Part shown: positions 18,011 to 40,640 of the stretch, in pieces
How positions within the stretch are numbered: position 1 is the stretch's first letter
Layout of the letters: each line of letters opens with the position of its first letter
Assembly: GCA_014871385.1 (NCBI GenBank)
Contig: CM026429.1
Span: 17,340,751 to 17,404,750, forward strand
DNA length: 64,000 bases
Reading direction: 5' to 3'
Origin: Ceratodon purpureus
Taxonomy: Eukaryota > Streptophyta > Bryopsida > Pseudoditrichales > Ditrichaceae
The notes under the pieces: model-generated
What the model was told of the DNA's origin: nothing
The model's input: the letters and a program-made list of their open reading frames with translations, nothing else
Databases searched by the model: none
Made by a program: the position numbers and the translations under genes

Positions 18011-20360
18011 CTTGATGCTTTTGTTGATTTTCATACAATATTTGCATTCTTGCTCCCATATGTTCATTCAACCATCCTCATAAATTGAATAATGTGAGAT
18101 CGTGATGTAGTTTTAATTCAAATTTACTACATGTGAGTTGCTAGTAGTCTTTTGTTGTAAGTCTTCATTAGTAGGAAATGCTGTCACATACACCCACACC
18201 TACACTCAAAACCGCTCCTATGTACCCCAAACCTCTTTGGTGGACTCTGGGTCTCTTTGGTCTAAAAGTGCATTGCCAAAAGCTAAAACGAGCTGGTCCA
18301 TGTTTGGTTAGTCTACGATCCGATCCTACTATCTGTCTAGATCTAAACTTGTGGTTCACGTTATTGTAGTCAAATAAGAGCGCAAGATTAAATTTGAAAA
18401 TTTCTTACTGTGGACGGATGAGGACCAGATTACATATTCATCGACATGCGTCAGGTGAGTCCGAGATGGGTGTTTCTAACCGCATCAATTCCAAGTTATG
18501 AGACATTGATAACCAACATTGATGTTATTCAAGGGATGCAATTATTATCAAGTTTGGGTGCTTGGCGTATTAGGTAGAAGGCGGTTGGTATCTATGCCTA
18601 CAAAATCTTCATACTGATGTTGTGCGCATTGAAAATCCGAGTTGAAGTCCGGACAATTGTAGAAGATACATTGATTCATGTTCATATTGATGTCGAGGTT
18701 GTACATGTGTTTAGGACGTTCCAACGATACTTAGCCTTCATGTTCATGCTTAGCAATTATGTTGTGGATTGATGTTCATGTACAAGAGGGGTTTTGTGTA
18801 ACGACGCCTAGATTCTGTTATGAAGATATCTGGTTTTTGGTTCAATATTGAGATCCAAGATTAGGTATGATACCCATATAAGAATTTTATTATATTCCAT
18901 GGCTATAGCAGCGAATTAGAGCGTCTGGATTATTGCCAATTACAGTATCTGCAATTCTTCACGCTAATGAGAGCCCACTCATTTTGGGTGTATAATTGGG
19001 GCATTTTGTTGATATCTACGGTTTAGGCGCTTAATTGGAGCAAATGACCGAGAATGAATATGATGGCGAAATAAGACTGCAGTTCCAGCAATGTTGAATA
19101 TAGAGTATTTACTTCAAGGATATGCAACTCGTTCATGGCGTCCATTCTTATGGACCAAAATAGGTCACGATTTGCTTAACAAAAGGTAGTAATTTTTATG
19201 CACGAACTATGCTAAGTTCCTTATTACGAACTAGGTAACAAGTATCCTATTTACCATAAACTTGATGATCTAGTTTTCTTCACTATTGCCTCGTCCAACA
19301 CCCTGAATGGTTACCTATCCTTTATGTGAAGCAATCCACAGTCTGCCTTCAAAATGGAATGAATCTGTACCATCAACTCACCCCTCTTGCATAGATGCTT
19401 GAGCTTCTACGTCTTGGCTTTGAAGCTCCCACCGATTTCACCTTCCGCCACTACTACGTCTGGGAAGTCGAGGTGTAGAACATAGCATGGCTTGTCGCAT
19501 GTTATGGAATCGTCGAATATGCCCGATAACATCATTACACCGTGGCGGATGCGAGATACATCTGAAGATGCCAAATAACATTACTTGATGAAGTCACTGA
19601 CGTCACCATGATTTTAGATTAGTTGAAGGAAGACAAAAATGATATCCGAAGTAGGAGGGAGCCTGCAACCATGGTCCGCAGTGCCTCAATTTGTAGCAAC
19701 TTGGTGGAATTCAGGACTACGTTGCATCTAAACAATGACATGACAAATCTAACACAGTTGTAATGAAAGCAAACAATGATCCATGCCAACATAACATGAG
19801 GAATGTAGAGAACAAGGAAAGAGGAAACCATTGAAAGATGGTAAGTAAACTTCTAAGCTACTAGATTTGGCTATGCATGCATCCAATTCACCAACCTCTC
19901 CCTCTCCCTTTCCCTCTCCTCCTTATATAGATCCTAAACCTATCTAAATCTAGTTTCACAATTTTAAATCAATAATATGGAATGTTAAATTCTTTGTGTC
20001 TAAATTTCCTAGGCTTAGCTCATTGTCATGGTTAAAGGCATTCACGGATTCAACTTTTGCTATATAATACAATAAAATCATCTTCCTTTCACAGTCAAAC
20101 ACTATGTGTAAAATAATAAATTACTGAATATCATGCCAAAAAATGACAAAAAGAAAAAACTTTTTGTTTTCAAAAGCATAGACTTAGAATCTACTTATAC
20201 AAAGTTAATCTTTCTTTTACGGTAGAGGGACCTACAACCAATGAGATTGAAGCCCTTCTGCAAATGAAATGGCATAGGAGGTGTAACAAAAATATACAAA
20301 GATTGGACAGACGTAGAGAATATGAATCAAAAAAAGAACTTAAAAAGATAAGTAAATAAA
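18011..20360. other. Intergenic DNA, no gene recognised
   Basis: Only short open frames were seen. A stretch near 19385-19500 reads as a plausible protein piece (L-E-L-L-R-L-G-F-E-A-P) but is soon stopped and matches nothing I know. Confidence 0.4.
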
Positions 20361-20472
<112 letters not shown>

Positions 20473-20639
20473 ATTTTATTTTATAATTTTTATTTTGGAC
20501 GTGCATTAATTATTTTTTTGAATTTACAAGGTCCAAAAACTGTAAAGGCCATTGACTATTGAAAAGGTGCTTGTAAAATTGTCACTAATACAATGAGAGA
20601 TCAAGGATTAATAGGTCAATGGGACATTCACACCAAAAA

Positions 20640-20725
20640 TAGGGAGTGAGAAATTAGTTCCATATGATTGATTAATGGAAGTCTAGTTTCATCAATTGAT
20701 TAATGGAAGTCTAGTATCATCAATT
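20640..20725. repeat. Short tandem duplication
   Basis: GATTAATGGAAGTCTAGT followed by TTCATCAATT (or ATCATCAATT) occurs twice in a row. Nearby, TTCCCACTTGGCCTTA (about 20816) and its inverse TAAGGCCAAGTGGGAA (about 21198) form a short inverted pair, possibly the ends of a small degraded element. Confidence 0.45.
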
Positions 20726-20729
20726 GCTG

Positions 20730-22079
20730 GTTGGTCCGTCCGAGATACAATTCCCTTTAGTCCTTAGACCCTCTACCTTATTGAGAGCCATTAGCCATAC
20801 CAAGTTAAAGGTATGTTCCCACTTGGCCTTAGAGGGGGTCTTAAGAAGGGTGTTATCTCCATTAAAAAGTGTGTGTTCCCACCTACATGCTTTAGTAATT
20901 ACCAATCCTACATGGATGTCCACATGGCACACTTTCAAGAGTGGGTATTAGTTAATATTTAAGAAGACAAAAAAGCTTTGAGAAATAGTAGGCAATACTT
21001 ATGGGGCCACCAATATTGGCAAGATTCTCTAGTTTTCCTCTCATAAGAGTGGTCTTATGTATTGTCCCATTTGAGGGACCAGTACATAATCCCCTTCCTA
21101 TTGATAAGGCTTTACGAACCTCATTGATTACACCTTTTCCAAAAAGAAGGCATTACTCCCCAAATTGTGGAGTTGTTAAATTTTTAAGCATGCTCTTTGC
21201 TAAGGCCAAGTGGGAATGGGCCTTAAGCTGTGCAGCAAAAATGTTCAACCGACCGAAAAGAACAACGTGACACAGTGCAATGCAAAAGGCTTTCATCGGC
21301 AAGAAAAGGACACAATGGTCCCACACTCTCAGGACGTCAAAGTGTCCACTAAACGCTATCTCTGAGGGCCCTCAGATCACCCACAAAAGCATGCGATCAG
21401 AGCCAAAACGGCACGACACACCAGTAATTGAAATTCCACAAGCACTTCAGATGGTCCACTCCACAGAACAGATACAAGTGGGCAAACTCCAAAATGTGAC
21501 CCCACTGCGAACTTCGCGCAAGGCCATTTCTCATAGAGAATACATCAGCCATGAATTTATGCAATGTTAATGAGCAGCAGAATAATTTACAGCTACCCAT
21601 CAGTGATGATCGTCTCTCCGAGTTGGTTACGAAACGAGTTGCCGTTTCTACCACCAACATGTTCTTTTTGTCTCTCAACGAGTAACCTATGCTCTCCTCT
21701 CGAGAGATAACCTAAAGCCCTGAACGAAGACTCCAGGATATGATTGCATTAGCCCAAATTCAAACTGGGTACAGGACCATATGAAAGTAAAACTAATCAG
21801 GCTATTAATAAACCCGTGCATCTTTAAACAAGGTGAAAGGGAGATCTTTCAAACCGAGAGAGAAGCCTTGGTTCGACCCTTTAAGGTGTAACCCCCTACC
21901 AATGTAATTAACAAGAAGACCTAACTCCGCCAGAGTCGTCGACGCTATTACCATGGTTACATGAAGCCAAAGCGGTGCAGTCACAATGTGGGGCGGCCGA
22001 GTTAATTTTGGGAGCGGTCAATTCGAATTCAATAGAGATGACTTGAAGCATGATCAATCAAATCATTCTGCAAAATTGT
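20730..22079. other. Intergenic DNA downstream of the BPG2-like gene
   Basis: No gene could be supported. The segment next to 22080 is presumably the 3' untranslated region of the minus-strand GTPase gene. Confidence 0.35.
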
Positions 22080-24679
22080 TCAATATACCATCTCCTCCAT
22101 AGGTTTTGTCTGCTTGGGTTTTGGTTTCTGATCTTTCGACTTCTTGTTTCCTTTGCTGGGAGGAGACTTCACCGCCGTAAATCCGGGCTTCTCAAAGATC
22201 GCCGCCATGTCGTAGACCATGGCCTCATGAGTCGTCACAGCAACACCCTCGTATGTCCAAGCTTGCAGAATTGCAGTACCCTTCACGCCGATACCCACCC
22301 ACCCCAGGCCGGCTACCGCCACGTCCACAGAGCTGTGCTCCCAAGAATCTCCCGTCACCGTGACCCTCCTCGGTACCCACCGCCCTATCTCTGCAGCTCG
22401 CTCCTTGTCCGCTGGTGGCTGAGGAAACATGGAACCAGTATTATCAGCTCAAAGGAGAGCACAGTGCACGCATTCACTACACAAACCTAGCAGACCAGCT
22501 CATTCAGAGTACATATTCGGACAACCAAATATAACTTAACGCTCCAGAATAACATTTCCCATGAACACTATTCTTCTAGAGAAGGTACGAGTGGCAGGAA
22601 AACTAAAACATGATTCGCCTGATCACATCACCTCTCCGAGTTGAACAGAAAGGAGACACATACCTTCAATCGATCACCGAGGTGCTTCTCGAACAATTCC
22701 TCAGCCTTCTCTGATTTCCCCATGTGACACGGCAGCTGGGCAGACGCCCACACTGTTACGTAGATGCTCTCAGATGGGGCTTCCACCACGTCCAGTCTAA
22801 ATAGTCCTCCTACGTGCACCGAACTACCAATCTGTTTCAAGTCCAACATCCAACCCATTCACCACTTACATTGAGAGAAGAAAGTGCTGGGAACCCTACT
22901 AAACGATGGCAATCTTATTGAGAAACTACCGCAATTAACATGTGTTTGGGCCTTCAGATGTGGCAAGCAATGTGGCACAGGTGCAGCAACTCCTCCGCCT
23001 TTTTCCTATGCTAACTGCCTACATGGTTTAACCTATATGTGAAACAGGTTCGTAATTAAATATTAAAGGGGACGCAATACGCAATGATGACTCGATCTTA
23101 CCTTCACGCGGAACGTTCTCGGCTTCAGCTCCTTGCGCACTTCTACCAACTTTTGCTCCTCCCGATTCAGCTTCGTGCTCAGTTGGTGCGGGTGAATCAG
23201 GCCCGGAGTGTCGAACAGTCTTGCCCGAGCTGGCAAGATTCCTTCCAATTTCAGTACCCCAAGTGTAGTCCCCGGCACGGCTGCCTCCGTCAACGCCGTC
23301 TTCTTCCTCTTCTCTCCTGCGAACTTCGCCAATGAGTTGATCAGGGAAGACTTGCCGGCATTCTGTGCACCCACAACCCAGCAGTCTCCCCGAGGACCGG
23401 CCAGCTGCTTTATGTGCTCTGCCAGCTGCTCCACGCCCCATCCTTTGAACGCACTCACCAGGTGGACGCCCGCCACTCGGGTCACGCCCCCAGATTTCGA
23501 TCTCCGCCGAACCCATTGCTCCAGCCGGTTGGCAGATATCTGCTTTGGCAGCAGGTCGATCTTGTTCATCACCACTAACAGCCTCGGGGTGTTTCCGGCT
23601 TTGCCTTCCTGCCACGCCGAACCCAACTCTTCGTCGGCCTCTGCCAGCACTTCGGCGGCTTTTCGTGGAAACGAGCCATCAAAATCCGATCCGTCCACCA
23701 CCATCAGGACCACGGCTCGCCTTCCATACGCCTTCTTCAATCGTGTACCCACCACGCGCTCGAAGTCAAAATCGGGAAGCAGATTCTCCACGCTCTCATC
23801 CTTCACCTTTCCATAGTTTCGCAAAGCGTGACAGCGGGCGCACACCACAACTTTCTCTTCGTCTTCCTCTGCTGGGTCCTGCGCCCCATCTTTCTTTGGC
23901 CGATGCTTGCTGCTCAGTATCTCGGCCCAGGCATCCTTCCCTGCCTGCCTGTCACCCCCAACCTCGTTCCATTCCGTCGCAACGCTAAGTCGACTGTCGA
24001 TGTCCATAAGCTCTTCGTCATCTTCCTCATTCTCGTCAAGCGTAAAATCCGACTCGTCTAATTCAGCTCTTCCTTCGAACTCACCCATATTGGTCCCCAA
24101 TTCCTCCAGCTCATCCTCATCAAGTTCGACATCTTCCTCCAATTCATCGTCCGCCTTTCCCAGAATGGTGGGCATTCTGAAGTACCCCGGTCTACTCGGA
24201 TCCTTGTCTTGCATGTAAACCCCACAACCAGGACAAGCCAATTTTTCCAAGAACTTCTGCCGGCGTCTCTCAAAAGACGCATCGCTATCTACAGCTGAAC
24301 CCGGTTTCGAAAAATCTACTGTCCCGAGCTGCTTACTCCTATCACTAGCCCTAGCCCCGCCCTCTGAACTACTGCTAAACTTATGGGAGCCAGTGAATGG
24401 CCCACTGAAGGCAATCCTTGATGTCGGAGACGACCTAAACCTATCTGCAAAACCCAATGCAGTAGACACAACTGGGCTCTCAGCAAACTCACCATGTCCA
24501 AGTCCGAGCAAGCAATATTTGTAGCATTCCTGCCTCACGGATTTTCCCAAACGTGTGGAAGCATAGAACCTGATCATCCGGGAAGAAGGAGAGACGATAC
24601 CGCCCTGAGCCCATTGCAATGTCCTCGCAGCAGCGTGGCAGGACGTGCATCCCGACACTGTCCGAGCCAGGCAGGCCAT
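22080..24679 (-). CDS. BPG2: BPG2-like circularly permuted GTPase, plastid-type
   Basis: Three phase-0 exons on the minus strand: 24679-23102, 22831-22664 and 22418-22080 (stop TGA), about 694 aa. The first about 60 residues look like an organelle transit peptide. A split zinc site follows: C-P-G-C at about 149-152 and C-A-R-C at about 280-283, separated by a very acidic insertion. The GTPase motifs are in permuted order: G4 N-K-I-D (372-375), G5 S-A-F-K-G, G1 G-A-Q-N-A-G-K-S-S (437-445), G2 P-G-T-T and G3 D-T-P-G-L (490-494). This order and the flanking sequence fit the YqeH family, and within it BPG2 rather than NOA1. In Arabidopsis BPG2 is a chloroplast protein needed for plastid rRNA maturation and linked to brassinosteroid and light responses. 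The C-terminal exons carry the expected A-G-L-G-W domain. Confidence 0.9.
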
Positions 24680-25460
24680 GGCAGCTGACCGACCGAGACC
24701 GCCGAGAGGCTCCCGTACTCAAAGGGCCACGAGCGTTTCTCCGAGCTGGTGGCTCCAGGGTTCGAAGTCCTCAATCAAAGATTCGCACACTAGGACCACC
24801 GGCACCTCCACCCTCCCTGGCAGCAGAGTGAAGACAGAATTTGGGAAGCGCAGGGGCCGGGGCAGGGGCCGGGGCAGGGGCAGGAGCAGATGCACAGCTC
24901 TGCGCGAAGGGATGGTCGCTCGCTCATGCTTGTTCGCAATCCAGTCGTGGACCTCAGTCTCCGAATGCCCGGGGCGAGAGCTAAACCCTAAACCCTGAGC
25001 AGGACCAACCCTGCCCCTGGATAAGGCTCAGCTTGAACGATAATCATCACGTACGTCATGGTCATGGTCGCTTCCGTCGCATCCAGGCTCTGCTTGTTTT
25101 CGACTCACGGAGGTCCCGCCACCACAGCCTCAAGGTCATCGTCTTCTTCGCCTCCCACTCCTGCTGCATTTTTTATGCTGACGAGGTTCTTCCATTCCGA
25201 GAGGCGCTTCCCGTACAATGGGTCCCTTATATAGCGCCCCTCTAAACCAAATCTATCTTTTGACTGACCTAAAATTAGACATTGAAATTAGAAGTGCATT
25301 AAAATAAACGTGAGATATTTCTCAAGAAAAAAAAAATTGTAAAAATTTGACAAAGGTGAAATGTCCCATTGAAAATACCACATTTTCAAATTTTAGAGGG
25401 AGTACACCAAATCTTGCTTAAAAATGGAAAGATCCTTCCAACTCCCTCTAAATTTCAGAA
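24680..25460. other. Upstream region of the BPG2-like gene
   Basis: This GC-rich leader holds a tandem GGGGCCGGGGCA/GGGGCAGGGGCA tract at about 24852-24890. No TATA box was recognised on the minus strand. No other gene was seen. Confidence 0.4.
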
Positions 25461-25800
25461 ACCATGGCTTTCCCCCATGTATGTGTTTCTCGAAATTGGG
25501 TTGTCGGATCCAACAGCTCATTTTTGCCATCACCAACTTCCGGCGGAAATGAAAACCCGAACACTCCCCCTCCCGCTTGCCCTCTGGCCCCGCCAAATAA
25601 TCCCCCCCCCCCAATCCTACGATGCCGCGTGGCCCCTTCACCAAGCAACCCGGTCAGCACACATATGAGGACAAGGACGATGCTTTAAAAATCTAATATC
25701 AGGTTCAGAGTGTGAGCCACGGCCCCTGCCCTGCCCATGAGCCTATCCTCGAGCTCCAACCCCTTGTCTCGCATGATGACTCGCTTCAACTTGAAATTTA
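25461..25800 (+). repeat. Direct repeat, copy 1 (flanks SIM gene cluster)
   Basis: About 340 bp, nearly identical to 32318-32660 in the same orientation. It starts ACCATGGCTTTCCCCC, continues through GCCATCACCAACTTCCGGCG and GGCCCCGCCAAATAATCC, and ends TGACTCGCTTCAACTTGA. Weaker similarity continues beyond it: the ACTTA-GATTTAGTAACC segments at about 26160-26260 and 32870-32970 match. The repeat contains the first copy of the two-part motif (25469-25516). Confidence 0.8.
25469..25516 (+). promoter_or_regulatory. Two-part motif, copy 1
   Basis: TTTCCCCCATGTAT, then TGTCGGATCCAACAG starting 33 nt after the first T. Confidence 0.55.
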
Positions 25801-26660
25801 AAAATTTAATTTTACCACCCACCTGGGCTACACCCTACAGAGCAGCATAGCACCTGGGGTCGGAGGCCAGGATTTTTTTCATCTTGTATATTAGCATACT
25901 TGATTTGTACTTAACATTTTTAGTTTGCTCATGCTGATTTTTGAGTTTACCATCATGGCATGAGATTGTCAATTACCTTCTATAAATTACTGGCTTCATC
26001 TTCTACAAGAATGTCTTTTACAAAGCATCCTCTTAAACCAACTGTACATCTATGATTTGACAAAGGTATATTATCAAATAGATTATGGATAATCCACAAT
26101 ACCATCAAGCTTGGTTGGTGAATGTAGTTTAAACGAATTCATTTTATTTTATGATATGAATTGCTTATGAAGGTGCAGAATGTCTTATGCTTAGGTTGTG
26201 AAGTTCTTCTCAACTTACGATTTAGTAACCGTAGAGAACTTTCTAACATAGGTTATGATATGGTGGAGATGCATTTTAAATCTAGAATATCTTTGAAAAT
26301 AATTACAGAAGTTCTTCTTAATTTACGAGTTCATTTGAATATGTCATTTTCATGTCATTTTATCCCCATGTGCCTATGATTATTACTAAGTCGCTGCCAT
26401 GACAGTAAATGCAATTGTTGTTCAGCCAGAGAAAGTGACCATGATATCTTCTTGTAATCTACGTGAGCAAGTTCTCTATTAAACTTGACCGATACTCACA
26501 ATTACGGACCGTGGGAGAGTATCAATCCACGCTCAACGCATTGAAAGAAGCACATTCAAAAGCTAATTCTTAGCCTTCCAGTACATTCAGGAGCCATTCG
26601 AAATCTGCACATTCAGGAGCCAAGCCTGGGCGGGAATACGTCGAAGTCGGATACCAGCAT
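25801..26660. other. AT-rich spacer, no gene
   Basis: Nothing coding was recognised. It includes the diverged extension of the direct repeat (about 26160-26260). Confidence 0.4.
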
Positions 26661-26674
26661 GGTCTTGCAACGGG

Positions 26675-26722
26675 TTTCCCCCGTGTATGCCATGTCCAAA
26701 AAGCACTTGTCGGATCCGACAG
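26675..26722 (+). promoter_or_regulatory. Two-part motif, copy 2
   Basis: TTTCCCCCGTGTATG, then the perfect dyad TGTCGGATCCGACAG at 33 nt, about 450 bp upstream of the ATG at 27172. Downstream similarity (GTTCAAAGATGGGGGAA) is shared with copy 3 (GTTCCAAGATGGAGGAA). Confidence 0.6.
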
Positions 26723-26912
26723 TACTCTTGGGTGGAGTTCAAAGATGGGGGAATCCAAAAATAGCTGAACGGATCTGCCTGGTTGAATGGCTAGGTAGGT
26801 GTCTAGGTCGTCGATGTTGGTGAGTGGTTGCTAGGATTTACAGCGGCGGTGGCTCGCGGTGGAGCCTATCCTCGCAACAAAGGCTGCTCAGCAAATTTCG
26901 GAGGCTTTTTCC

Positions 26913-26987
26913 CTTGAACATCTCACCGAGCTCTCTCTCTTGAACATCTCACCGAGCTCTCTCTCTTGAACATCTCACCAAGCTCTC
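26913..26987 (+). repeat. Tandem repeat in the leader of the gene at 27172
   Basis: Three units of CTTGAACATCTCACCGAGCT plus CTCTCT, the last with one change. Confidence 0.75.
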
Positions 26988-27171
26988 ACACCTCTTACAC
27001 CGTCGCGAGCTCTCACACCTCACTATTCTTCCACTGTGCGCTCACACAAACAACAGCTTGCGGTCTCACATCTGTTTCCAAGCTTGTGCCGAACTCTCAC
27101 AACTCATTTTCAGATCTCATCAATCTTACCGAGAGCTCACTCTCATCGATTGTTAGTGTAGATCTTCCATC

Positions 27172-28311
27172 ATGGTCTTCACCCAAGCCCAACGCGCTGT
27201 GATGCAAGTGGAGCACCTTGAAGACGAGCAACACCTATCAAACTACAACTTTGCAGACGATCAAAATGCCAGGTACGTAATGCATAGACTCTTGTCCACT
27301 TATTGCAATAGAATGCATCACGAGTCTAGGCCGTGTGGCAGAGGTGGCTGCTTAGTGTGATCATTTTGGATCCTACTGTTTCTTTGCCAGCGGATTGCTC
27401 ATTATCTAGCTTCATGTAAATGATTGAGTTTATAGCCCATGACGAGGACCAGGAGGTAGAGTAGTAGAGAACAAGGAGAAGAGAGAGTGACAAAGAGATG
27501 AAAGTAGAGGAGAGAGGGTCAGGGAGTTCCGAGAGAAAGAGAAAGGGATAGGGAGATGCGAGTAGAGGAGAGAGGGTCAGGGAGTTCCAAGAGTGGAATA
27601 GGGGGTGTGATGGGGAGATAGGGAGAGGGAGTGCACGTTTTTGTTGAAAATTATTCTTAATTCTAATAGTCTGCAGGAGATCCGAGGAGCATCTTCTCGC
27701 ACTATAGGCGGCTGATGCTGATTTTGCCATTCGAGCGGCTTGCCTGGATTTCCAGCTTTTACCACCTCATGAAGAGCACGCAAGCAGGCATGTAGAGCAC
27801 ACCAGCAACCGCAAGACGAAGAAGCCAAGGTAAGACACTCAAATTCGAAAATTCTTTGTGAATAATGTTCAAATTGTCAACTTTTAAATTTTGACTGACT
27901 TATTTACTTTATTCTAATTGAATCAGAATCTCACTTGAGCCGGCATTCTCGGCAACATTGTCTCCAAAGGCTTTAGCGTTGCCTGAATATTCACCCGGAG
28001 AGGGTGAGATTACTGAATCCTCTAATGAGTCAGAGGATCTGAACTTTGTAGTTAATGGGTTGGATGGGAATACAGTTGCCTTTACTCTCTCGATGTTTGA
28101 AGGTGGTCTCCCCCCTTGGGCAGAAATGATGATTTCCAACAACTAGGCATGGATTGAGCTAGCTGATTGCCCAATCGTAGACCGAGAGACTGGAGACATG
28201 ACAGAATGGCTCGAGAGCGTTCGTGAAGACTCAGATTGCGTAGAGATACCTCCTCAAGCGGAGAATTCGGTTCATATAGTAATTTGGCTTAGCGATAGCG
28301 ACTCAGAGTAG
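27172..28311 (+). pseudogene. SIM-tailed accessory gene, interrupted copy
   Basis: Three exons with agreeing phases: 27172-27272 (ATG; donor GTACGT), 27677-27829 (donor GTAAGA) and 27927-28311 (stop TAG), 213 codons. The frame is broken by two in-frame TAG codons (27705-27707 and 28144-28146). The C-terminal exon resembles the protein at 30156-30590. Both have a D-x-[IL]-N-F-[FV]-V strand, then L-P-P-W or F-P-P-W, and both end in a hydrophobic-acidic tail, here VIWLSDSDSE. That tail looks like a SUMO-interacting motif. The function is otherwise unknown. AATAAA at 28415-28420 could serve polyadenylation. Confidence 0.5.
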
Positions 28312-29345
28312 TATACTAGGCTTTTCACCTTTTTGTTAGTATTATAGTCTAGTGTGTTCTATTTGTACTACATATATTTCTATGCATTCACATTATCTCA
28401 TGATTTTCATTATTAATAAATATATGTATATCTCCTATAGGTCTTTTCAAATACAAAGCGCTTCATTTAGTCTTTCTTAATGTTGTATGTTATTCATTAG
28501 GGGAAAAATGGGGTCACAGGAGGGCCTTGTAAGACAGCCCGGATTAGGTGAGCTTCCTGCCCGCTGACACTTCTCTGCGAAGTCTCATTGGTGGATATCC
28601 TGCCCGCTGACAACAAAATTCGCCCCGCTGACAACAGGATTCGCCCCGCTGACAACAGGATCCGGTACTGTCCAATGGGGTGACAACAGTGGGCACACAG
28701 TCGGTGACAGTGTCATTACTGCTTATATTGTTCAATGGGGGGGTGGGGTGGGGTGGGGTGGGGAAGGGAAGCGATTGGCTGGACCCTCCAAATGCCAACT
28801 GCTGGCACTGCTGGCAGCATTTGGCAACCTGCTGGCACCATTGGTGCGAGCAGTTAAAGTGCACGGGCATGGCAAAAATTCAGGCACATATTTCATGGAA
28901 AAGGCCCTTAGGAGACCCCAAACTTCCCCTAATGTGTATTGTTTTTGCAAACATATCTTCAAGTGCAATTGATCCAAAAAAACTAGACATCAAGAAAGTA
29001 AACTATTTCAAAATTAGTTATTGGATCGACAAAATATATATATGTATCTTAATCAATTTCAAAATAGGGCCGTTAGTTGAAGTCACTATTTACATATATT
29101 TCTTGGCATGTATTATAACATTCAATTTTTGCAACATAATTCAATCTATATTAACCATTAATATGGTTCCTATGTGTATAATAGAACAATCATCTATACA
29201 TTAATAAAAAGGTTGCGTTGAACCTTGGGCTACAACACAAGTTTAAAATCAAGCCGCTTGCTCATACACCCCCCTCCCAAGTGCTGGTCATCTTCTAAAA
29301 GTGGATATACACTGAACCCCAATACCTCAAGGGTCTCATATGTGC
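28312..29345. other. Spacer with tandem repeats
   Basis: It contains a 21-bp tandem repeat (28605-28665) and a G-rich GGTGGGGTGGG tract (28737-28765). No gene was supported. Confidence 0.4.
28605..28665. repeat. About 21-bp tandem repeat
   Basis: CCGCTGACAACA(A/G)(A/G)ATTCGCC is repeated about three times, with GCCCGCTGACA half-units upstream (from about 28558). Confidence 0.7.
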
Positions 29346-29393
29346 TTTCCCTCGTGCATCACCATTTGGAAAAAGGGCTGTCGGATCCGACAG
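29346..29393 (+). promoter_or_regulatory. Two-part motif, copy 3
   Basis: TTTCCCTCGTGCATC, then TGTCGGATCCGACAG at 33 nt. The dyad is extended to AAGGGCTGTCGG and its perfect inverse, so it could form a hairpin. Confidence 0.6.
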
Positions 29394-29572
29394 CCCTTTT
29401 AGTTCATGTTCCAAGATGGAGGAAACCTGAAATAGCTTGGCACGCTCGCCAGTGAGAACAAGCCGCTAATGCTTAGAGCTTAGGCTATAGGCTCTAGGTT
29501 CACACGAATTTACTAGCCCATTATGCATGGGGCTATTTACGAGGCAAACAACTTTGCTGCAATTGTAAGATG

Positions 29573-29619
29573 TTTCCCCCAAATTTAGCTTCCAAAAATC
29601 TAGCTGTCGGATCCGACAA
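29573..29619 (+). promoter_or_regulatory. Two-part motif, copy 4
   Basis: TTTCCCCCAAATTTA, then TGTCGGATCCGACAA at 32 nt. It lies about 215 bp upstream of the TATA box at 29832. Confidence 0.5.
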
Positions 29620-29831
29620 CAGATTTTGCATGGGCGTTGTCACTGGGGATACCATCTCCTTTACGTTGGCATAGGTAAGTTTTTTAATTGGTTTTGAAAT
29701 AAATTATTGATTCTTCAAATAAGATTTTTATGGTGAGTCATGTTCCAGTTGCTCATTATTCAAGTTATGTCCACAATGTCTTGGAACGATGGTTGTTGTG
29801 GGTTCCTAGTACCACAACCTTTCCCTACACC

Positions 29832-29839
29832 TATAAATA
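29832..29839 (+). promoter_or_regulatory. TATA box of the SIM gene at 30156
   Basis: TATAAATA preceded by CTACACC and followed by a CT-rich leader (CTCTTCCACTCCCTTC). It lies about 325 bp before the ATG, so a 5'-UTR intron (acceptor TTGTAACAG at the ATG) is likely. Confidence 0.65.
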
Positions 29840-30155
29840 CCGCTCTCTTCCACTCCCTTCACACATCTCTCTTCTTCTGAGTTGCACTTATCCCATTATG
29901 TTCCCTTTCTTCATTTTGTATTTTGTTTAGTGCTTTGCAACTTTGGAAACTCCTCCTTGTCTTCTCCCATATCTCGGTGTAAGGTCATTACATATAGTTA
30001 GAGTGATTTTTTGAATTTCTAATGTGTGAGCAATATTTTGGAGCTTGGCTTAGAGTAGCAGTTTGGCGTCTCAAACATGCATTATTTATCTCTAGTAAGG
30101 TTTTACTGAATTTGTTTCATTGCTGTAATAAATATATATGATCTTCTTGTAACAG

Positions 30156-30590
30156 ATGGCTGATCCTCTGTTGCCTAAGACACCATCGCCAAAGTGTTCT
30201 CAGCGTGCCACTAGAGACATGGCGACCTTACCTATGCCCAAGTCTCTCTTCCATGACAACACCGACGACCCTAGACCTCGTACTTCGGAAACCAAGCCAG
30301 AAGATACCATCAACTTCTTTGTTGTTGAAGGTCCCCGCCAGTCTGTCTTGTTTGAAGTAGAGAACTTGGATGATCCTTTTCCCCCTTGGCTTAACTCTTG
30401 GATGGCAAAGGACGTTACAGGAGACCAAACCGACATAGAGCTATGCCACTGCTATCCCGGACAGAATTCAAGCTCTGAAACAAGTGGATTCGGAGCTGTC
30501 GCGTGCACTGACAATGTGGAGGATGAAATTACCTCGACGCCGAAGTCAACACCTGAAGTCATCATACTCAGTGATGACGAGTCCGATTAA
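30156..30590 (+). CDS. SIM-tailed accessory protein, intact
   Basis: An open frame of 144 aa whose ATG directly follows a good acceptor (TTGTAACAG), with a TATA box at 29832 and AATAAA at 30742. The protein starts with a Thr-Pro/Ser-Pro segment. It contains N-F-F-V-V and F-P-P-W-L, shared with the broken copy at 27927-28311, and ends E-V-I-I-L-S-D-D-E-S-D. That ending is a textbook SUMO-interacting motif (hydrophobic core followed by serine/acidic residues). No catalytic domain was seen. It is tail to tail with the gene at 31137-31778. It might act as a small adaptor that binds SUMO-modified chromatin proteins (inference). Confidence 0.6.
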   Translation: MADPLLPKTPSPKCSQRATRDMATLPMPKSLFHDNTDDPRPRTSETKPEDTINFFVVEGPRQSVLFEVENLDDPFPPWLNSWMAKDVTGDQTDIELCHCYPGQNSSSETSGFGAVACTDNVEDEITSTPKSTPEVIILSDDESD

Positions 30591-30741
30591 ACTAAGTAGA
30601 GTTCCAACTTTCTTCTCTGTCATTCATAAGTAAGCGGCTATATAGGTTAGCGGTCTCTGAAGCAACTGCTAGGGGTACAAAGAATATGAGAGACAATATC
30701 CAACACAAGTTTTGTATCATGTACTCAAACTCCAATGCAAG

Positions 30742-30747
30742 AATAAA
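30742..30747 (+). terminator. Polyadenylation signal
   Basis: AATAAA about 150 bp after the stop of the SIM gene. Confidence 0.45.
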
Positions 30748-30850
30748 AACATTTATGATTTATATATACTATCTACGTTTGCTTCATCTCTTCTATTTTC
30801 AATTCTCATGTATACCTTGAACAAGGTGACTTCCAAGGTCTCACATGTGC

Positions 30851-30898
30851 TTTTCCCCGTGCATCAAAAGTCCCAAATATGGCTGTCGGATCCGAGGT
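30851..30898 (+). promoter_or_regulatory. Two-part motif, copy 5
   Basis: TTTTCCCCGTGCATC, then TGTCGGATCCGAGG at 33 nt. The right half of the dyad is degraded. The preceding GGTCTCACATGTGC matches the GGTCTCATATGTGC before copy 3. Confidence 0.5.
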
Positions 30899-31136
30899 TC
30901 AAACTTTGAGGAAATCGATAAATACCTCCACTAACAACAACCTCCGCAAATACAACTTATTTAAATCCGAATTTTATGTATAGTTGGAAACATTACAGCA
31001 TGAAGGATGCATCTTGCCTTTTGACCAGTTGCAAAATCTCCATACCTATCTCTTTAGCCAAGTATATCAAAATTGCCAAAGAGGCCATAGCACGAAAAAA
31101 AACAATGAGCAATTGAGCATCTCACAACGCAAAGCC

Positions 31137-31778
31137 CTACATCTTCTTACTCTGATCTAAAGGCTTCCCTAGAACTGCGTTCAAGTGAACCTTCTTTCGA
31201 ATAGGCCATTTCAAATCTCCGAGAGACACAAAAGTTGGAGCGTTGTATCGAGGACGAACGCTCCTTTCGTTTGAAGACGTCCCTGACCCAGTCGTCGAGG
31301 TCGCAGCAAGCGTGTACCCAGGTGGAGGCCCCATCAATTCGGCTGCATAGCTGTTGCGAAGATGGTCTCGCAGTAAAACCTTCTGTTGGAGAGACAACTC
31401 ACTAAGTGGAGTGTTTACCAGATCCTCGTCAATCTCAAACGGAATGTTGCGGTCAGTTGTGAACAATGTCAAAGCCTCTATCCAGAACCCGTATATCATA
31501 CTCGTACCCCACTCATCCTTCCTCTTCCTGGCATCCCGACTCTCCTTGCTAGCGACAACATATGCCGACCAAGCTGGCATGGTGTCAATCAAGCTCATCC
31601 ACTGCTCGTCCGTCTTGCACAAGTTCTCAACAAGGGTCATGTAGTCGTAGCCCCATTCGCGGCTTTCAATTAGTGATCGATTGATTTCCAGCATCAGATC
31701 CGGAAAGATTTCAAACATGGCCGCCTCTGGTGTCACCCACGGCTGGTTGAAGAGGTCACTCACAACCTCAACGTCCAT
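31137..31778 (-). CDS. Conserved accessory protein of unknown function
   Basis: An intact 213-aa frame with a normal ATG (31778). It is mostly helical and charged, with W-V-T-P near the start, then R-D-A-R-K-R-K-D-E-W, P-L-S-E-L-S and a final basic region. The C-terminal 55 residues after G-P-P-P-G are Ser/Thr-rich. No family was recognised. The broken gene at 8631-9194 is a diverged paralogue, and both are tail to tail with a plus-strand gene whose product has a SIM-like acidic tail. The repeated layout suggests they belong to one gene set or element. Confidence 0.6.
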   Translation of the reverse strand: MDVEVVSDLFNQPWVTPEAAMFEIFPDLMLEINRSLIESREWGYDYMTLVENLCKTDEQWMSLIDTMPAWSAYVVASKESRDARKRKDEWGTSMIYGFWIEALTLFTTDRNIPFEIDEDLVNTPLSELSLQQKVLLRDHLRNSYAAELMGPPPGYTLAATSTTGSGTSSNERSVRPRYNAPTFVSLGDLKWPIRKKVHLNAVLGKPLDQSKKM

Positions 31779-32317
31779 TTTGATAAAGAATAGAGGAATA
31801 CTGCCAACCTAGACAGAAATCTATTCTACCTAAACTCAATTGCGATGGGAGACCAAAGTGCCGTAGCTGATAAACAAGTTAGTACACTCCCTAAATCCTC
31901 CACCCATCCTCTTCCAGATATATGCAACATGGTCAGCCCTTGGAGAAGAAGCACTCCCCTTCACTCAAAGCATTTAATTTTGGTTCAATACTCAAGGATT
32001 CCCAGCCGAACTTGCACTTAATTATCAGTAAAATACATAATCATATCGAGCTTTTGATTCGGCCTCTTCCTCAAGACATTACGTCACAATTATTTCAAAA
32101 TCATTACAGTAATCAAAAAAGCTGGTTTCACTGTTTCCACACACTAGGATCTGTAGCATATTTTAAACAATTTAGGATAAAAGGAACCATGCTTCAAATT
32201 ACGAGAGATTCAAATATGGGTTCCCCATCATTCCATGGTTTGAATTGGTACCTAATCCTTACAAAATAATGAGTATCATTAGGGCATCAACCGGGGGCTT
32301 GGATATCACGGGGTAGC
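31779..32317. other. Upstream region of the gene at 31778
   Basis: This AT-rich presumptive promoter region holds no other gene that I can see. The direct repeat copy 2 begins at 32318. Confidence 0.35.
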
Positions 32318-32660
32318 ACCATGGCTTTCCCCCGTGTATGTGTTTCTCGAAATTGGGCTGTCGGATCCAACAGCTCATTTTTGCCATCACCAACTTCCGG
32401 CGGAAAGGGCCACCCGAACACTCTCCCTCCCAATGCCCCTAGGCCCCGCCAAATAATCCCCCCCCCCCCCATCCCCCCCATGCCGCGTGGCCCCTTCACC
32501 AAGCAACCCGGTCAGCACACATAAGAGGACGAGTACGATGCTTTTAAAATTTGGAATCAGGTTCAGAGTGTGAGCCAAGGCCCCTGCACTGCCCATGAGC
32601 CCATGCTCGAGCCCCAACCCCTTGTCTCGCATGATGACTCGCTTCAACTTGATATTTGAA
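32318..32660 (+). repeat. Direct repeat, copy 2
   Basis: The partner of 25461-25800, in the same orientation and offset by 6857 bp. It includes the C run in AATAATCCCCCC and the two-part motif. Confidence 0.8.
32326..32373 (+). promoter_or_regulatory. Two-part motif, copy 6
   Basis: TTTCCCCCGTGTATG, then TGTCGGATCCAACAG at 33 nt. Confidence 0.55.
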
Positions 32661-34337
32661 TTTGAAATTAACCAGGCAACAAATCTACAGTCCAGCTAAG
32701 AATATTTACTTGATGTTTGAAATTATTCTGTGAATTGATTTGGTCGTTTCTATTTTTCAAATTTGGGCCAAGTGTTCTACTTTTCCTTGGGCAGTTATCA
32801 TGAAAATTAGATATTCACCATCTTTAAGTTAGTTTATACGGCAGACAAATTGATCTATATAATATGAAATGAATTGCTTTTGAGATGAAGACTATCTTAT
32901 GATTAGGCTCTGAAATTCTACTCAACTTAGGATTTAGTAACCTGAGAAAACTATCTAACATAGGAATTTAGTATAAGGCCGCAAGGACAAAATTATGTAG
33001 AGACATTCTAGATATTTACCAGCATTTTTCTTCCAAAATTTTCTTTCAATCCCCGCCTGGATTTGATAAAACCGTAATACCTTGTGTGTCTAAAAGGGAA
33101 TATTTGTAACTAACCCGCATGTTTTTTCCACGGTCATAGACCACGGTCATAGGACATTTGAAAATTCCCCACAAATAAGGTTTCCGAAAAAATCTCAGCC
33201 GCCGGAAAATTCTCTGCTCTGGGCTCTGTGCTCACCGCTCTACGCTCGCACACCAGTTTTCCCCAGTCTCTCATCATTGAGGGATGAACTCTGTCACCGT
33301 CGATTGGATGTTTTTTGCTAGTTTTTTGGGAGTTTAAGAGGCAGGTTTAGGATTTCTTGTAATCATTCTACACTAGAGCAGGTAGAGTCAGGGAGATCTT
33401 AGAGCTGTTAGGCGGAGCTGCACCATTGTTTTGGGCTGTTTTGCCTTGATCTATACGATTGTAGACTCCTTTTATTTGTATTTGTATGGTTTAGTTGGAT
33501 TTCGTAGGACTTTGGTGGGTTCGTGAGGGCTTAGGGTTTATTGGTTAAATCCTCCCTTTACCAAGTCAAGAATGTAAAATTTCCATTGCACTCTCTACTC
33601 CTAGTACTAGATTTGAAAGCATTCATTACATGATTAAAGAAATTAATGAAATTAAAGAGTTGGCAAAGGTAAAGTAAACTTTGTTGTAAAAATTATAAGA
33701 GAAAATTTAGTCTTTGAAGTTTAAAATGAACAAAGTGTTTATTTCTTTCAACATTATGCTATTGCATGGTTCAATTATGAAAGTTTTTAAAGCAAAATAA
33801 GAGTCTAAAAGAAATTAACTTCAAGATACCACAGCAGTTTTGTTCAAAAATGATTCTAAAAATTAAAAAAACAAAAAAATTAAAAAATTATGAAGACAAA
33901 ATAATAGAAATAGAATATAATACTTTTTGTAATATTTTGTTATTTCTAAGCCATTTAAGGTCATTTTTATTGATTTCTTGCTAAAAAACAAAAATTAAGA
34001 AATTCAATTTTTGGAAAAGAAATCTTTTTTTTTCCGAAGAAATAAAATTCAATGAGTAGGTGGCAAACTTGCAATTGTGTTACGGTACTATTCTTAATGA
34101 GTAATTTATACTCTTCTATCCTAATTACACTCCAGCTAAAAAGTCTAGCTTTTTTCCAACATCAAAAACTAAATTAATCTTTTTCAAATTGAAAAACCAT
34201 CAAGTTTTGATAAACAAATTATATTACAGGAAAATTACTCCAAATCTTGAGAACAGAGTAAACTACTCTCTCTCCACCTTATGTTGAGATGTCACTCTGC
34301 GCTTGCCTAATTTGTGCCCAAATTAGGAGTACACGGC
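32661..34337. other. AT-rich intergenic DNA
   Basis: It contains the diverged extension of the direct repeat (32870-32970) and copy 2 of a dispersed CT-rich repeat (33110-33260). No gene was supported. Confidence 0.4.
33110..33260. repeat. Dispersed repeat, copy 2
   Basis: The pieces CGGTCATAGG, TTTGAAAA, AAAATTCTCTGCTCT, CTGTGCTCACCGCTC, CGCTCGCACA and TTTTCCCCA are in the same order as at 9660-9780. Confidence 0.35.
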
Positions 34338-35540: not shown

Positions 35541-38500
35541 GTCCTTCACCAAGTAATTACTCACAATCATTCCGAGCCTTGCCACTCCTCGGATAGTGTT
35601 TCCGGAACGTATCTCTTCGACTCTCTCTCTCTATTACAGCAGGTGTTTCGTCCACAAACCCCAACATTTCGGAAAGGAGACCGCCTCACAACTGACTTAG
35701 AGCACTCTGGTCAGCAGATCACACAGACGACCACTTCCGATCCGTGAGACTACAATGACAAACCAATCCGGATCTGGGAGAACCAGGATCCGATTATCCC
35801 TAGGCGACCCGTGCCACGTTCCGAATCCCCCTCTCACTGAGTGCAGAACCTCTTCAGAAGTTCAGGGAGCCTGATCAAGTACCCCTCGATCCGCTTCGAC
35901 CCTAGCGACGGCTATTCCGCGTGAGGTTGGGTTGGGGATGGAAAGTGAGGCTTCACTCCTACGACAATCCCCTAAATCTTTCCGCTTGATCCCAGTACCA
36001 TTCCGATTCGGGTCTCGTCACAACTCCCATCACCTTCCTATCCGAGCTACAGCGGAACTCTCATATCCTTCCCGGATCATTCACACTTAACTGGAAACCA
36101 CGCACAGTACTTGCAAAAACACAAATACTTTACTGATAAGGAATATAGGGAGAAAACATGCAAAACAAAGACTCGGACTGCATCGCCTTCCCTGTTTAAG
36201 TAAGCAGGGGCTTCCACAAAAGCGGCGGCGCCGGAAGTTCAATCAAAAACCTTAATTCCTAATTATCTACCTAGAATCCTACTTTACGGTTAAACCGGAT
36301 CTACCCTGATCCGAAATCTACTCCTATAAATCCGGAAAGTGACTGACAGTTTCCGTCCGAGGAATCTGTCCCGTCTTCGTCTTCTTATGGCTCTCCTGCT
36401 CTGGGTCCTTCTCCTTCGACCGGGTCATCCGCGGCTCGGATCCTCTTGCCCTTGCTGCCTGCTCCGCCTGACGCCTAGCGCTCCGTTCCCCCTTTGACTC
36501 CTTCGACTTGGTCTCCAAGGAAAGCCGGGTAACGACCCGGGTCTTTGGAGACTTGGGAGACTTGGGCAACATCCTCGGAGGAGGGGTTCCGGATGTCGGG
36601 GTCCGAGTCTCAGTTCCGGCTGTCCCTACCGGGGAGCTAGCGTGAGTATCCGAGTCGGACCCGGAAATTGTAATTGGCCCCTTCTCCTCCGGTTCCTTCC
36701 TCTTCCTCAAAAACATCCGAGCACCTGAAAAGTCAGCAAAAGATTCCTCCACGGGTGTCCTGGTTGGTGTAGGAGTCACAGTCCCGGTCCGGGCTGTGGG
36801 TGAAGGGGTGAGTGCCCCCTCTTGAGTCACTCGGGTACGTCCGGTAGGTGAAATAGATTTCCTCCATTCCGCTCCAGCCACCTCCCCTTGGTGAACCGGA
36901 ATAATCACCGACGAATCTAGTGCTGGGGGAACAACCGGCTACACGGACCGGGTCACCTCTTCCGTAACCGTCTGCTCCTCGGATCGCCTGACAGTGACTG
37001 TAGTCCCCGTCACCTCTGCCTGTCCGGTGGGAATCGCGCAGCCTTGCTGAGCCGTACTGGCTGCGGGTGACGCCTCCTTGGCCTGAACTTCCCGGATCAG
37101 GTCCGCGATCGTCCGAGCCGGTGCGAAGATGTCCGAGTCAACCTCCATTTGCTCCTCAAACCGGAGGTTGCGCTCCATTGGGGTCCTGAACCCCGCACCG
37201 CGAGATTCCCCTACCACGGTCCGAGAGGGAGATCCGGGAAGTCTGGTTCCGACGCTGGGACTTCCGACACCCGGATTGAGCAACTTCCGAATCTCCTTCA
37301 GGATCTGGTTCATCGAGTGCTCGCATTTGGAAAGGATTGTGATAATCTTCTGCCTATTCTCCAATTGAGCCGGCTGCATCACATTCTTGTCGAACAACCT
37401 GGCCTTGTTGACTACATCACCCGGAACTCCCACCAACTTCTGGAGCTCACCCAAAGTCTCCTCCTGCTCAGCATGGAACTTACGGATCTCCTCGCTCTTC
37501 GTCGCCAGTTCCGAGGTAAGTTCCTTCAGCTAAAACTCCAATTGCTTCTTCTCGCTCCGAAGCTTCGGGGCGTCCTTCAAAAGCTCCACCTCTCGGATCA
37601 CCTCTTCCGGTAAACAGCCCCCTAGCGATGTGCAGACTCTCCGGAACAGCGTCTCAATCCGATCGTAAGAGGCCTGCGCCCGATGAGTTTCTTCCCTGAG
37701 TGCCCGGAACGGGTCAACCGGAAATCCTCGCTCGGAACTGACCTCCTTCCGTGTCGTATCATCTCGGGCCGTGGAGGGCTCCGCGTGCTGCGACGTAGCG
37801 CGTTCCGACCGTGACTTAGAATGGGCCTTCGTAGCGCTAGGATTCGGAAGGATCACCGTATCATCTTCCCCTTCCGTGGACGCCATATCCGAGGTGTCCC
37901 CGTGAGGTACGACATCAAACCCTGCCGCAACCTCCTGAAAGGTGAGGAGATTCTTCGCAATCGTATACCTCCCCTCCTCCTTATCCATCAGCAGCCTACT
38001 GGAATGGTATAGGTGGTAGAGAAAAGGGGCGATTGGGGTCGGCTTCTTTCCGATCGAGGGTACCAACTTCTGCACGGTTTTCGCTATGAGTGCAGCCCAA
38101 TTCACCGGACGCTGCTCCGTGTACGCTCCGAAGATGGTGTTCCCGACCGTGATGGTGACCTGTTCCGGTTTCAACGGATACAAGATCGGAACGAGGAAGG
38201 CTAGGACCTCCCTCTGTCTCCTATCCTTGGAGGCGTCTATCACGTATCCGTTGTTCTTATGGATCTTCCCGTGGAACCTATCCTGCACGTACTTATCCGT
38301 CCGGGTTGCCCAAAGGTGTCCGTTCTGTTCGAAGTCGTAAGTTTCCGCCCAATGTTCCGGACTCCACAGAGTGGGCTTGCCCCGGATTGTATTGTCCCAC
38401 CTATTATCCGGCCCCTCTAGGATTTCCGCCACCATCGCCTCATCCCTCAGCAACCAAGGTCGCGACAACAAACCCTCGCACCTCATCCGGGTGAGATCGT

Positions 38501-39040
38501 CAATCAACTCGTTCATCTCCGTCTCTCTCAGCGGAGTGGCGGGGCTGAGGATCTTACACTGAACGTGCAACATAGCTACGTCTCACTTCTCTCCCTTTGC
38601 GATCCGACAGCAAGAAACCCGGCAATCCAACTGCCAGTGAATCGGAAAAGACAAAACACCTCACCGCTCTTTCACTCTCTACTCCTAGTCCGCAAAAAGG
38701 AACTCCAAACCCTAACACTCCCGCCTATATACTCAGAGGGCCATAAACGCTGCGGCGACGCGTAATTGCAGCCGCTACCGTACCGAGCTCGGCATTATCC
38801 GAGCCATGATGACTTCCGCGTCGTTTCGGATCCCAAACGCGGTTATAGTAACGGTCAGTTCTCGGATCGTCAACCCGTTCCAAGTTTTCTCTTCCGAGTT
38901 TCCGAGATCAAGGTTCCGAGAATACTTCCTGCGTTAATTGTTTTAAGGTTTCTGGAGTATCCGGTTTGTGTTAACTCTTAATGCGGCTGGTGTCTAGCTA
39001 GTTTTTACCTAATTAACCAAAAAAATGAAAAATTAATGGA
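35541..39040 (-). mobile_element. Coding insertion within the NLR locus, transposon-like, broken
   Basis: A 3.5-kb block of different composition (rich in CCGGA/TCCGG) separates the two halves of the NLR gene; the edges are approximate. On the minus strand it carries one long frame (36324-38573, about 750 codons, with about two breaks). The first 200 residues have W-S-P-E-H-W-A-E, then V-N-W-A-A-L-I-A and P-I-A-P-F-L-Y-H-L-Y. They recall the putative plant transposon-protein domain found in repetitive plant ORFs. A coiled-coil region and a Pro/Thr/Ser- and Lys/Arg-rich tail follow. I found no reverse transcriptase, integrase, long terminal repeats or terminal inverted repeats, so the class is open. 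It is moderately old. Confidence 0.45.
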
Positions 39041-40640
39041 ATCCTAACTCCGGATGGGGCTCTTCCGGTTTATTCTGAGTTTCTCGGATCCCACACAAAA
39101 CCAGAGGAAGACATGATAAAACAAGAGTATCCAAGTTGGAGCTCCTAAAGAAATCTAGACACCCCTGGAGAGTCCGAGGCAACTTTGCTTCATCATGACC
39201 TAATACTAACACTTTCATCAACTCCATACGAGTTACATCAGGAAATTCTCTAAAGAACTCACACCAGATTAAGCTTCGGAGGTTTATAGCTCCTTCTAGA
39301 TTCACACTTGCCAATTCAGGGCAGCCGCATTCTACAAGAAACATTTTCAGGTTTTGCATGCCTGAAACATCTACACTCATCAAGTTTGGACAATCACGTA
39401 TCCAAAAGACTCTGCTTCCGAGCAAGTTGTGCATGACTTTACATCTATTATGATGTTAGACACTGCTTGGTTTTCGATGTGAAACCTTCCCTCGTGAACG
39501 AAACGTCCACGCCTACTTCCACAAAATAACCAACAGCTTGCATTGTACTGCAAACCTTTCTTTTCCACCTCCATTGTTGCAAACTCGCGATAAAGATCGT
39601 GAATATATATCTTCTTTTTGTCAACGTCATAAAACTCAATAAGAGAATTTGCAAGAAGAACTTTCACCTGCGCAAGACTAAGTCATCACATGAGATAGCA
39701 CTCCATCATCAAGATAAGAAGTTCCGTCAACAGCTGAGATACATTTGAAGTGTCAAATAAGCAAAGTGAAAGAATAATACATTTATTAAAAGAAATAATC
39801 ATGCATCAATGTCACGAGTCTCAACTTGCCTTGATATATCATCTCTCATGTTTTATCACTATATCCATATTAAGAACTAAACATCACCATCAAAGATAAG
39901 AAACTCACCATGTCGGAAATGACTCTTTCATCAATTCACCATACAAGCACCGCATTTGCCATTCCGCACTCAACACGTCTACACCATCGATATCATTGCT
40001 AGGGAACAATGCAACATCCAGAAGCAATTTCTGATACTCCAGATGTGTAGCATTATAGCTCGACCTTAGGATGGAAAATATCGGGTACATATCTTCATTC
40101 TTGTAATACTTGAAGTCGATTTGTATATTCTGCCACTCCTCCGGATATGGTCCAACTCGAGTACCCAACACTTTCAATGCAAGTGGGTGATATTCTTATG
40201 ATATCATGCCTTCTACTCTGAAATTACATCGCTCCACAAAACTCTCCATCGCCCTCTTTTGACCTTCTGTAGGACTCCCTAGATCACAACCGGCATGTTG
40301 GCTAAACAATGTCTGGGCTTCACCAGCAGATAACGCCGGAACCCTCATCGTCGCCATCTTTGGAATCTTGAGCTTATGCAACACGATATAGCTGCGCAAT
40401 GTAACCAAAATCAAACTTCCTTCTTTGAAAGGGAGGGTGAGAAACATTCTTACACCAACCTCCGTGGCAACCTGATCACCACCATGTCATTGCAGTTGAG
40501 GAATCAACATGCAACCCTTCTAAATGGTATATTGCACGCCTCCCTAAGATATCTACCAAGGGATGCTTTGGTCAACAAGCAATCACCACAAAGAAGTGCA
40601 TTGTACAAATTGTGCAAGATGGAAAGAACACTACCATGAC
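39033..40640 (-). pseudogene. NLR gene, NB-ARC and first leucine-rich repeats
   Basis: Minus-strand pieces show NB-ARC landmarks in order. At 40196-40447 there is E-G-S-L-I-L-V-T-L-R-S (RNBS-B-like), then A-L-S-A-G-E-A-Q-T-L-F and, after a TAA, H-P-L-A-L-K-V-L-G (the GLPLAL box, 40177). At 39380-39667 the winged-helix end I-H-D-L-Y-R-E (MHD-like) appears. At 39033-39434 leucine-rich repeats begin. An intron is likely between 39668 and 39905. The P-loop is not seen; the 40450-40640 stretch (Y-N-A-L-L-C-G-D-C-L) may be a remnant upstream of it. NLRs are cytoplasmic immune receptors. This copy is broken by at least one stop, a frame shift near 39430 and the insertion at 35541-39040. Confidence 0.65.

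Follow-up and report, generated by a model that had tools for sequence, protein, structure and literature searches.

Mutator-like elements (MULEs) leave target-site duplications of 9-11 bp according to the part of the literature account available (PMC3310237), and their terminal inverted repeats (TIRs) typically measure 100-500 bp; the barley MULE Hvu_Abermu, 8.2 kb long and with GGG...CCC ends, is described as larger than other MULEs in the accessible part of its report (PMC9168764). Made1, by the available extract of its description, is an 80-bp near-palindrome built of two 37-bp arms and a 6-bp centre (PMC1784062). Here we describe repeated palindromes in a 64-kb window of the moss Ceratodon purpureus (assembly GCA_014871385.1, contig CM026429.1, hereafter C9:17340751-17404750; the window is this whole 64,000-nt stretch), where a first-pass annotation had noted six copies of a two-part motif, a box followed at fixed spacing by a dyad, within a cluster of what it called SIM genes. 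These palindromes are almost certainly internal repeats of a giant DNA transposon of 24-27 kb.

Palindromes of the window and the element that carries them

All six boxes were found where the first-pass annotation had placed them, at 25469, 26675, 29346, 29573, 30851 and 32326, and the corresponding dyads start at 25502, 26708, 29379, 29605, 30884 and 32359, so that the box-to-dyad distance is, as had been reported, 33 nt in five of the six copies and 32 nt in the copy at 29573. The sequence TGTCGGATCC is exact in every copy and the complete 14-nt dyad in three; the right side reads CCAACA in the dyads at 25502 and 32359 and CCGAGG in that at 30884. The box had been written as TTTCCC(C/T)CGTG, which describes three copies and does not fit the other three (CATG at 25469, CCAAA at 29573 and TTTTCCCCGTG at 30851). 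The dyad greatly exceeds chance expectation, unlike the box by itself: when up to three mismatches are allowed, the dyad is matched at 12 places in the window versus 1.75 expected (0 of 100 shuffles reached 12), comprising the six copies and six others with 2-3 mismatches, whereas the box has 10 versus 8.5 expected (32 of 100 shuffles were as high). The motif had not been seen elsewhere in the window, and a profile search likewise gave no seventh copy at E<1. A profile of five copies with the dyad masked found the same six copies again, and a dyad-masked profile made from the second and third copies only (c2 and c3, numbering from the left) found c5 (E 2.5e-9), c6 (0.0028) and c1 (0.12) and did not find c4.

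The noted motif is half of an imperfect palindrome of ~80 bp, with the order box, dyad, inverted box. The inverted box, missed in the first-pass annotation, follows the centre of the dyad on its right by 40-41 nt in five plus-strand copies, namely c1 (25469..25549, outer edge at +41, 7/8 letters kept), c2 (26675..26754, +40, 7/8), c3 (29346..29425, +40, 7/8), c4 (29573..29651, +40, 6/8) and c6 (32326..32406, +41, 7/8). The right arm of c5 (30851..30914, plus strand) has lost ~16 nt, and its inverted box stands at +24 with 6/8 letters. At random centres, at least 7/8 inverted-box letters within 38-42 nt occur with a probability of 0.002. Copies c2, c3 and c5 have further sequence in common, extending ~40 nt leftwards and ~12 nt rightwards (a 132-bp unit), and a longer duplication, of 25461-26263 and 32318-32978, encloses c1 and c6. 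We rejected the reading of the single palindromes as miniature inverted-repeat transposable elements (MITEs), with no direct repeat longer than 3 nt near the edges of any of the six, and likewise that of the 132-bp unit, with no direct repeat of at least 4 nt in 3/3.

The right edge, ...CGCTCTACGCTCGCACACCAGTTTTCCCC, is common to the window (at 33264) and six copies on contig C6, and the sequence that follows differs each time; we therefore regard it as a transposon end. The opposite, left end, GAGTGAAGCTAGCGTGCGAGCGTAGAGC, is inverted relative to it. Two complete elements on C6, R1 (C6:9827243-9854510; 27,268 bp) and R4 (C6:67916378-67940206; 23,829 bp), are flanked by the 10-bp target-site duplications TGGCCCAGAA and TTCCAAACAA, respectively, perfect in both of the elements for which both ends are known. 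The inverted ends of the complete elements are ~55 bp long, and 44 of 50 aligned bases are identical between the ends of R1. Inverted termini and 10-bp duplications of the target site, together with several open reading frames (ORFs), thus characterize the element, and what the window contains is the right part of a copy on C9.

The window copy is truncated on the left (25461..33264, plus strand): it is cut off at 25461, ends exactly at 33264 and comprises the right ~6.9 kb of the element plus some sequence of its own. Its right terminal inverted repeat (33210..33264, plus strand) ends in ...CACACCAGTTTTCCCC, and positions 33210-33259 match bases 6-55 of the R1 left end, inverted, at 88%. Three main blocks align to R1 20416-27268 at 86-91%, and the stretch 28932-33264 is ~91-92% identical over its entire length to two C6 copies. 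The 28-nt right terminus of the window recurs without change in the studied stretches L011, L027 and L033, with one mismatch in L017 and L028 and with two in L029. No second copy of the right-flank sequence was found within the window.

Dyads with up to three mismatches are concentrated inside the complete elements, with 59 in R1 versus one in 2.7 kb of flank and 24 in R4 versus none in 3.2 kb of flank; at the same threshold, six chance-like matches occur in the window outside the element. In both R1 and R4 the palindromes stand singly towards both ends and also form a short run and a further array. The short run, in steps of ~117 bp, lies between the ORFs tpA and tpB (four dyads in R1, seven in R4), and the further 117-bp array occupies ~12.0-17.4 kb from the left end in R1 and, with four units, 14.6-15.0 kb in R4. 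Tandem Repeats Finder reported ~46 copies of the 117-bp unit in L010 and 17.6 and 38.1 copies in L015. The copy at C6:16268813-16283010 (L015 and L016) has ~113 units in two blocks, compared with ~45 in R1 and few in R4; array length therefore varies strongly among element copies.

Genomic distribution, cargo genes and related sequences

We searched the assembly (362.5 Mb, 151 contigs) once with the exact pattern TTTCCC-N(23-31)-TGTCGGATCC, and the resulting count of 85, which comprises exact matches only, stands against none for the reversed-pattern control. The matches fall on C6 (110,524,308 bp; 77 matches), C7 (18.98 Mb; two) and C9 (17.57 Mb; six, which are the window copies). Under a 50-kb gap rule they form 15 groups on C6 and one each on C7 and C9; the binomial P of finding 15 of 17 groups on C6, which makes up 30.5% of the bases, is 1.3e-6, a value that ignores a possible general repeat richness of C6. 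A total of 36 pieces were studied, comprising the window and 35 stretches round the C6 and C7 matches and from the C9 flanks, and they contain 287 profile matches to the palindrome; most of the 35 stretches were picked for holding the motif, so their motif density is not a genome average. A genome-wide search had been proposed as a check, with copies scattered as one ordinary repeat and unlinked to these genes as the refuting outcome. The spread of exact copies over C6, C7 and C9 agrees in part with that outcome, but the copies do travel with the SIM-ending genes, because one element carries both. C6 may be a sex chromosome: the contig sizes fit a male (V) assembly of C. purpureus, with sex chromosomes of roughly 110 Mb. 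The C. purpureus genome is put at around 300 Mb, with the sex chromosomes as its largest chromosomes, in the available part of a review (PMC9273592).

The SIM-gene cluster of the first-pass annotation is cargo of the element; the name SIM (SUMO-interaction motif) reflects a presumptive reading of the C-terminal VIILSDDESD. The last exon of cargo gene 1 (27928..28311, plus strand) has an in-frame TAG at 28144 followed by a SIM-like VIWLSDSDSE end, and at least the R1 copy on C6 is open at that stop; the first 72 codons of the exon match ten C6 loci, nine over the whole length and one over 62 residues. Cargo gene 2 (30156..30590, plus strand) is an ORF of 144 aa with the C-terminal VIILSDDESD, and it matches seven of the fetched C6 loci, six at full length with 81-89% and one partially. 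Cargo gene 3 (31137..31778, minus strand), an ORF of 213 aa with no confidently assigned family, is found at full length with 88-92% in three C6 loci and in pieces in five more; it had no Pfam match, for the window ORF at E<=0.01 and for the R1 copy above the cut-off. Divergence by codon position (7.3, 6.5 and 9.1% for gene 2; 8.4, 5.4 and 6.0% for gene 3) gave no clear sign of protein constraint on either. Their position and their relatives elsewhere mark tpA, tpB and tpC as putative pieces of a transposase gene; tpC may carry a SWIM-like pattern, and tpA may carry zinc-ligand patterns.

Further sequence in and beside the window is related to the element or repeated independently of it. The first 9772 nt of the window, together with the C9 sequence upstream (L041), seemingly represent another, diverged member of the giant element's kin, with tpA protein pieces in L041 (51% identical) and at window 3-1166 (minus strand, 34%), sequences related to two further ORFs at 4405-4902 and 7045-7230, and a right-terminus-like sequence that ends at 9772 with 6 mismatches in 28. 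Another fragment, related to tpB and tpC, lies at 40480-41610 (plus strand; pieces 36-55% identical). The segments 20284-20540 and 55286-55486 are mutually inverted repeats, the first of them also nearly self-palindromic. The window ORFs include GTPase, LRR and FYVE domains, in keeping with plant DNA. Positions 37883-39095 match C6 stretches outside the element in L032 (86%) and L028 (91%, 38802-39095); another repeat therefore lies among the ORFs there.

Selection and possible roles of the palindromes

The first-pass annotation had taken the kept box and spacing to suggest selection, and the tests for it disagree, with support among old dispersed copies, none within arrays and none of significance among orthologous copies. 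In all eight pairs of dispersed copies compared, box plus dyad have diverged less than the linker and the flanks (Fisher p 4.7e-5 for c3/c6, 3.2e-8 for c2/c6 and 0.0005-0.006 for the six others). A left box stands at 40+-1 nt from the centre in 241 of 284 copies, a right inverted box in 207 and both in 171, versus 0.011 per side at random centres; the 284 are the 287 profile matches less three without a locatable dyad, and these shares are biased upwards because the search profile included the boxes. In the set of 51 distinct copies, the left box is present in 38, the right in 35 and both in 25, and the consensus of the set is a near-perfect palindrome. The kept boxes and the palindromic consensus suggest constraint in the past of the element.

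The palindromes would have spread within the element by local and tandem duplication, and they may serve, or may once have served, as symmetric binding sites for a putative element-encoded protein such as a transposase or an accessory factor, a proposal that we make tentatively. Several results weigh against it. The box alone is significantly better kept in only four of the eight dispersed pairs and not in the other four, and the dyad was the very feature by which copies had been picked. In 156 array units (158 less two dropped for poor fit), conservation is 0.854 for the dyad, 0.870 for the box and 0.873 for the other columns. In orthologous copies, a comparison that excludes c2 (it has no orthologue), the motif parts diverge by 8.2% versus 11.9% for other noncoding sequence, a value reached by 23% of shifted controls. 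Against the explanation as a whole, the 19.5 kb with a relative of the ORFs (L041 and the initial 9.8 kb of the window) contain no palindrome and one chance-like dyad match (3 mismatches), and the palindromes are therefore not general to the wider family. On the protein side, ten ORF pieces of R1 (perhaps exons) had no Pfam family above the cut-off, the largest of them had no sequence match in PDB, and an AlphaFold model of the ORF was unusable (mean pLDDT 29.7); for these reasons the superfamily and the transposase label are unproven. The even decay of array columns, the insignificant difference among orthologues and the absence of the palindrome from the related 19.5 kb favour instead a passive repeat without a role, spread by unequal exchange and replication slippage and similar among copies through shared ancestry and copy choice. 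That account, possible but somewhat doubtful, is countered by the preservation of box and dyad in all eight dispersed pairs and by a box-to-dyad spacing that holds within 1 nt on both sides in five of the six window copies.

A transcribed palindrome could also be folded and diced into small RNAs, as the accessible part of PMC1784062 describes for human microRNAs derived from Made1, and this reading, promising in four of the six window copies, looks improbable after comparison with the 51 distinct copies. Relative to arm-shuffled controls, folding is stronger in c2, c3, c4 and c6 (z -2.6 to -3.2 with mononucleotide shuffles; Stouffer -4.7 over the four with dinucleotide shuffles), and own-arm folding ranked 2/24 in one test and 4/24 in another; c1 (z -1.3) and c5 (z +0.9), however, fold no better than controls. 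Among the 51 copies, left/right-arm chimeras reached -23.5 kcal/mol versus -20.5 for true copies, and the linker-only z, negative in 29 of 51, averaged -0.32. No compensatory stem changes having been found, a hairpin maintained by such changes is thus unsupported, and we rejected it. No Rfam family reached its gathering score in the window, and positions 25000-33500 gave six matches below threshold (best E 0.015). As a host cis-regulatory site controlling the SIM-gene cluster, for example an inverted repeat of TGTCGG bound by auxin response factors (ARFs), the palindrome is very unlikely. TGTCGG is the preferred ARF half-site in the available part of PMC10690724, and the c1 centre lies ~275 nt upstream of a TATA-like sequence at 25233 (minus strand) and that of c4 ~221 nt upstream of the one at 29832 (plus strand). 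The facing half-sites resemble auxin response element inverted repeats, but they are separated here by 2 nt and not by 7-8 nt, the arrangements described in that part being IR7/IR8 and, weakly, IR5, IR6 and IR9 (PMC10690724); an ARF site of the IR7/8 type, with 7-8 nt between TGTCNN half-sites, was rejected accordingly. A connection with the TATA box at 29832 or with promoters nearby also finds no support in the comparison with R1, where most dyads lie in the 117-bp array of the transposon and four between putative transposase ORFs, and a host promoter role of the motif is unlikely. Hardly credible at all is a remnant of a conserved coding exon (such as ..AFPR....AVGSDS..): several copies are open across box and dyad, and the differences between c1 and c6 are distributed unevenly across codon positions (10, 3 and 17), but ten contiguous bases are invariant, wobble positions included, and the ten pairs among c2-c6 lack clear codon periodicity, for which we rejected it.

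The best overall explanation is probably that of palindromic repeats internal to a transposon, possibly sites for the element's own proteins. Descent and co-transposition account for all six copies, for the spacing within them and for their association with the SIM-ending genes. We favour a putative binding-site role over no function, with small-RNA and host roles behind. The dimer site proposed in the first-pass annotation may exist, for an element protein instead of a host factor, and its alternative of a conserved structural end of a repeat family came close as regards the repeat family, the palindrome being internal to a large transposable element and not an end. What appeared to be a control motif of a gene cluster is hence explained as transposon anatomy. 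The element itself is a DNA transposon of exceptional size that carries genes of its own and has palindromic satellite arrays in its interior; it is concentrated on a single contig as large as a chromosome, and its copy on C9 lets its age and traffic be measured. If C6 is a sex chromosome, the element shows concretely where satellites and multi-copy genes on the sex chromosome of a haploid plant can come from. It is conceivable, though improbable, that this giant transposon, concentrated on a possible sex chromosome, is a two-component selfish system in which the dense palindromic 117-bp satellite array and the SIM-ending element proteins act jointly. The proteins, or a SUMO-linked complex, would bind the array and so bring about silencing, segregation, replication or movement of the element, in a logic comparable to that of a satellite-and-protein drive system.

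Comparison with described elements and repeats

A stricter form of the pattern had no matches in bacterial/archaeal or in viral contigs, in a scan that may omit the records of this genome, and ARAGORN found no tRNA. Full-text literature searches returned no match for the 14-nt dyad, no such repeat by title for GGATCCGACA among the matches listed, and no match for Ceratodon with Mutator transposable elements and sex chromosome.

In its ends and duplications the element resembles MULEs, although we do not call it one. As far as the available parts of the reports on Hvu_Abermu (PMC9168764) and on tandem-TIR MULEs (PMC3310237) extend, it has in common with them a 10-bp duplication, within the 9-11 bp of MULEs, as well as inverted termini and extra ORFs, and its GGGG...-type right end is similar to the GGG...CCC ends of Hvu_Abermu (PMC9168764). 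It differs from them in length (24-27 kb versus 8.2 kb for Hvu_Abermu) and in its TIRs, which are present but ~55 bp long instead of the typical 100-500 bp. It also contains, unlike them, dozens of internal palindromes and a 117-bp array, and no match to a known transposase domain was found in the ten ORF pieces of R1. The homologous regions (hr) of baculoviruses consist of repeated imperfect palindromes with a conserved six-base core in a large mobile genome; the palindromes described here differ in their core, GGATCC, in the 117-bp unit and in belonging to a plant transposon. In size (~80 bp) and near-palindromic form they are like Made1 and other palindromic MITEs, going by the accessible part of the Made1 description (PMC1784062), from which they are set apart by the lack of a duplication of their own, by a centre conserved as well as the ends and by being part of a larger element.

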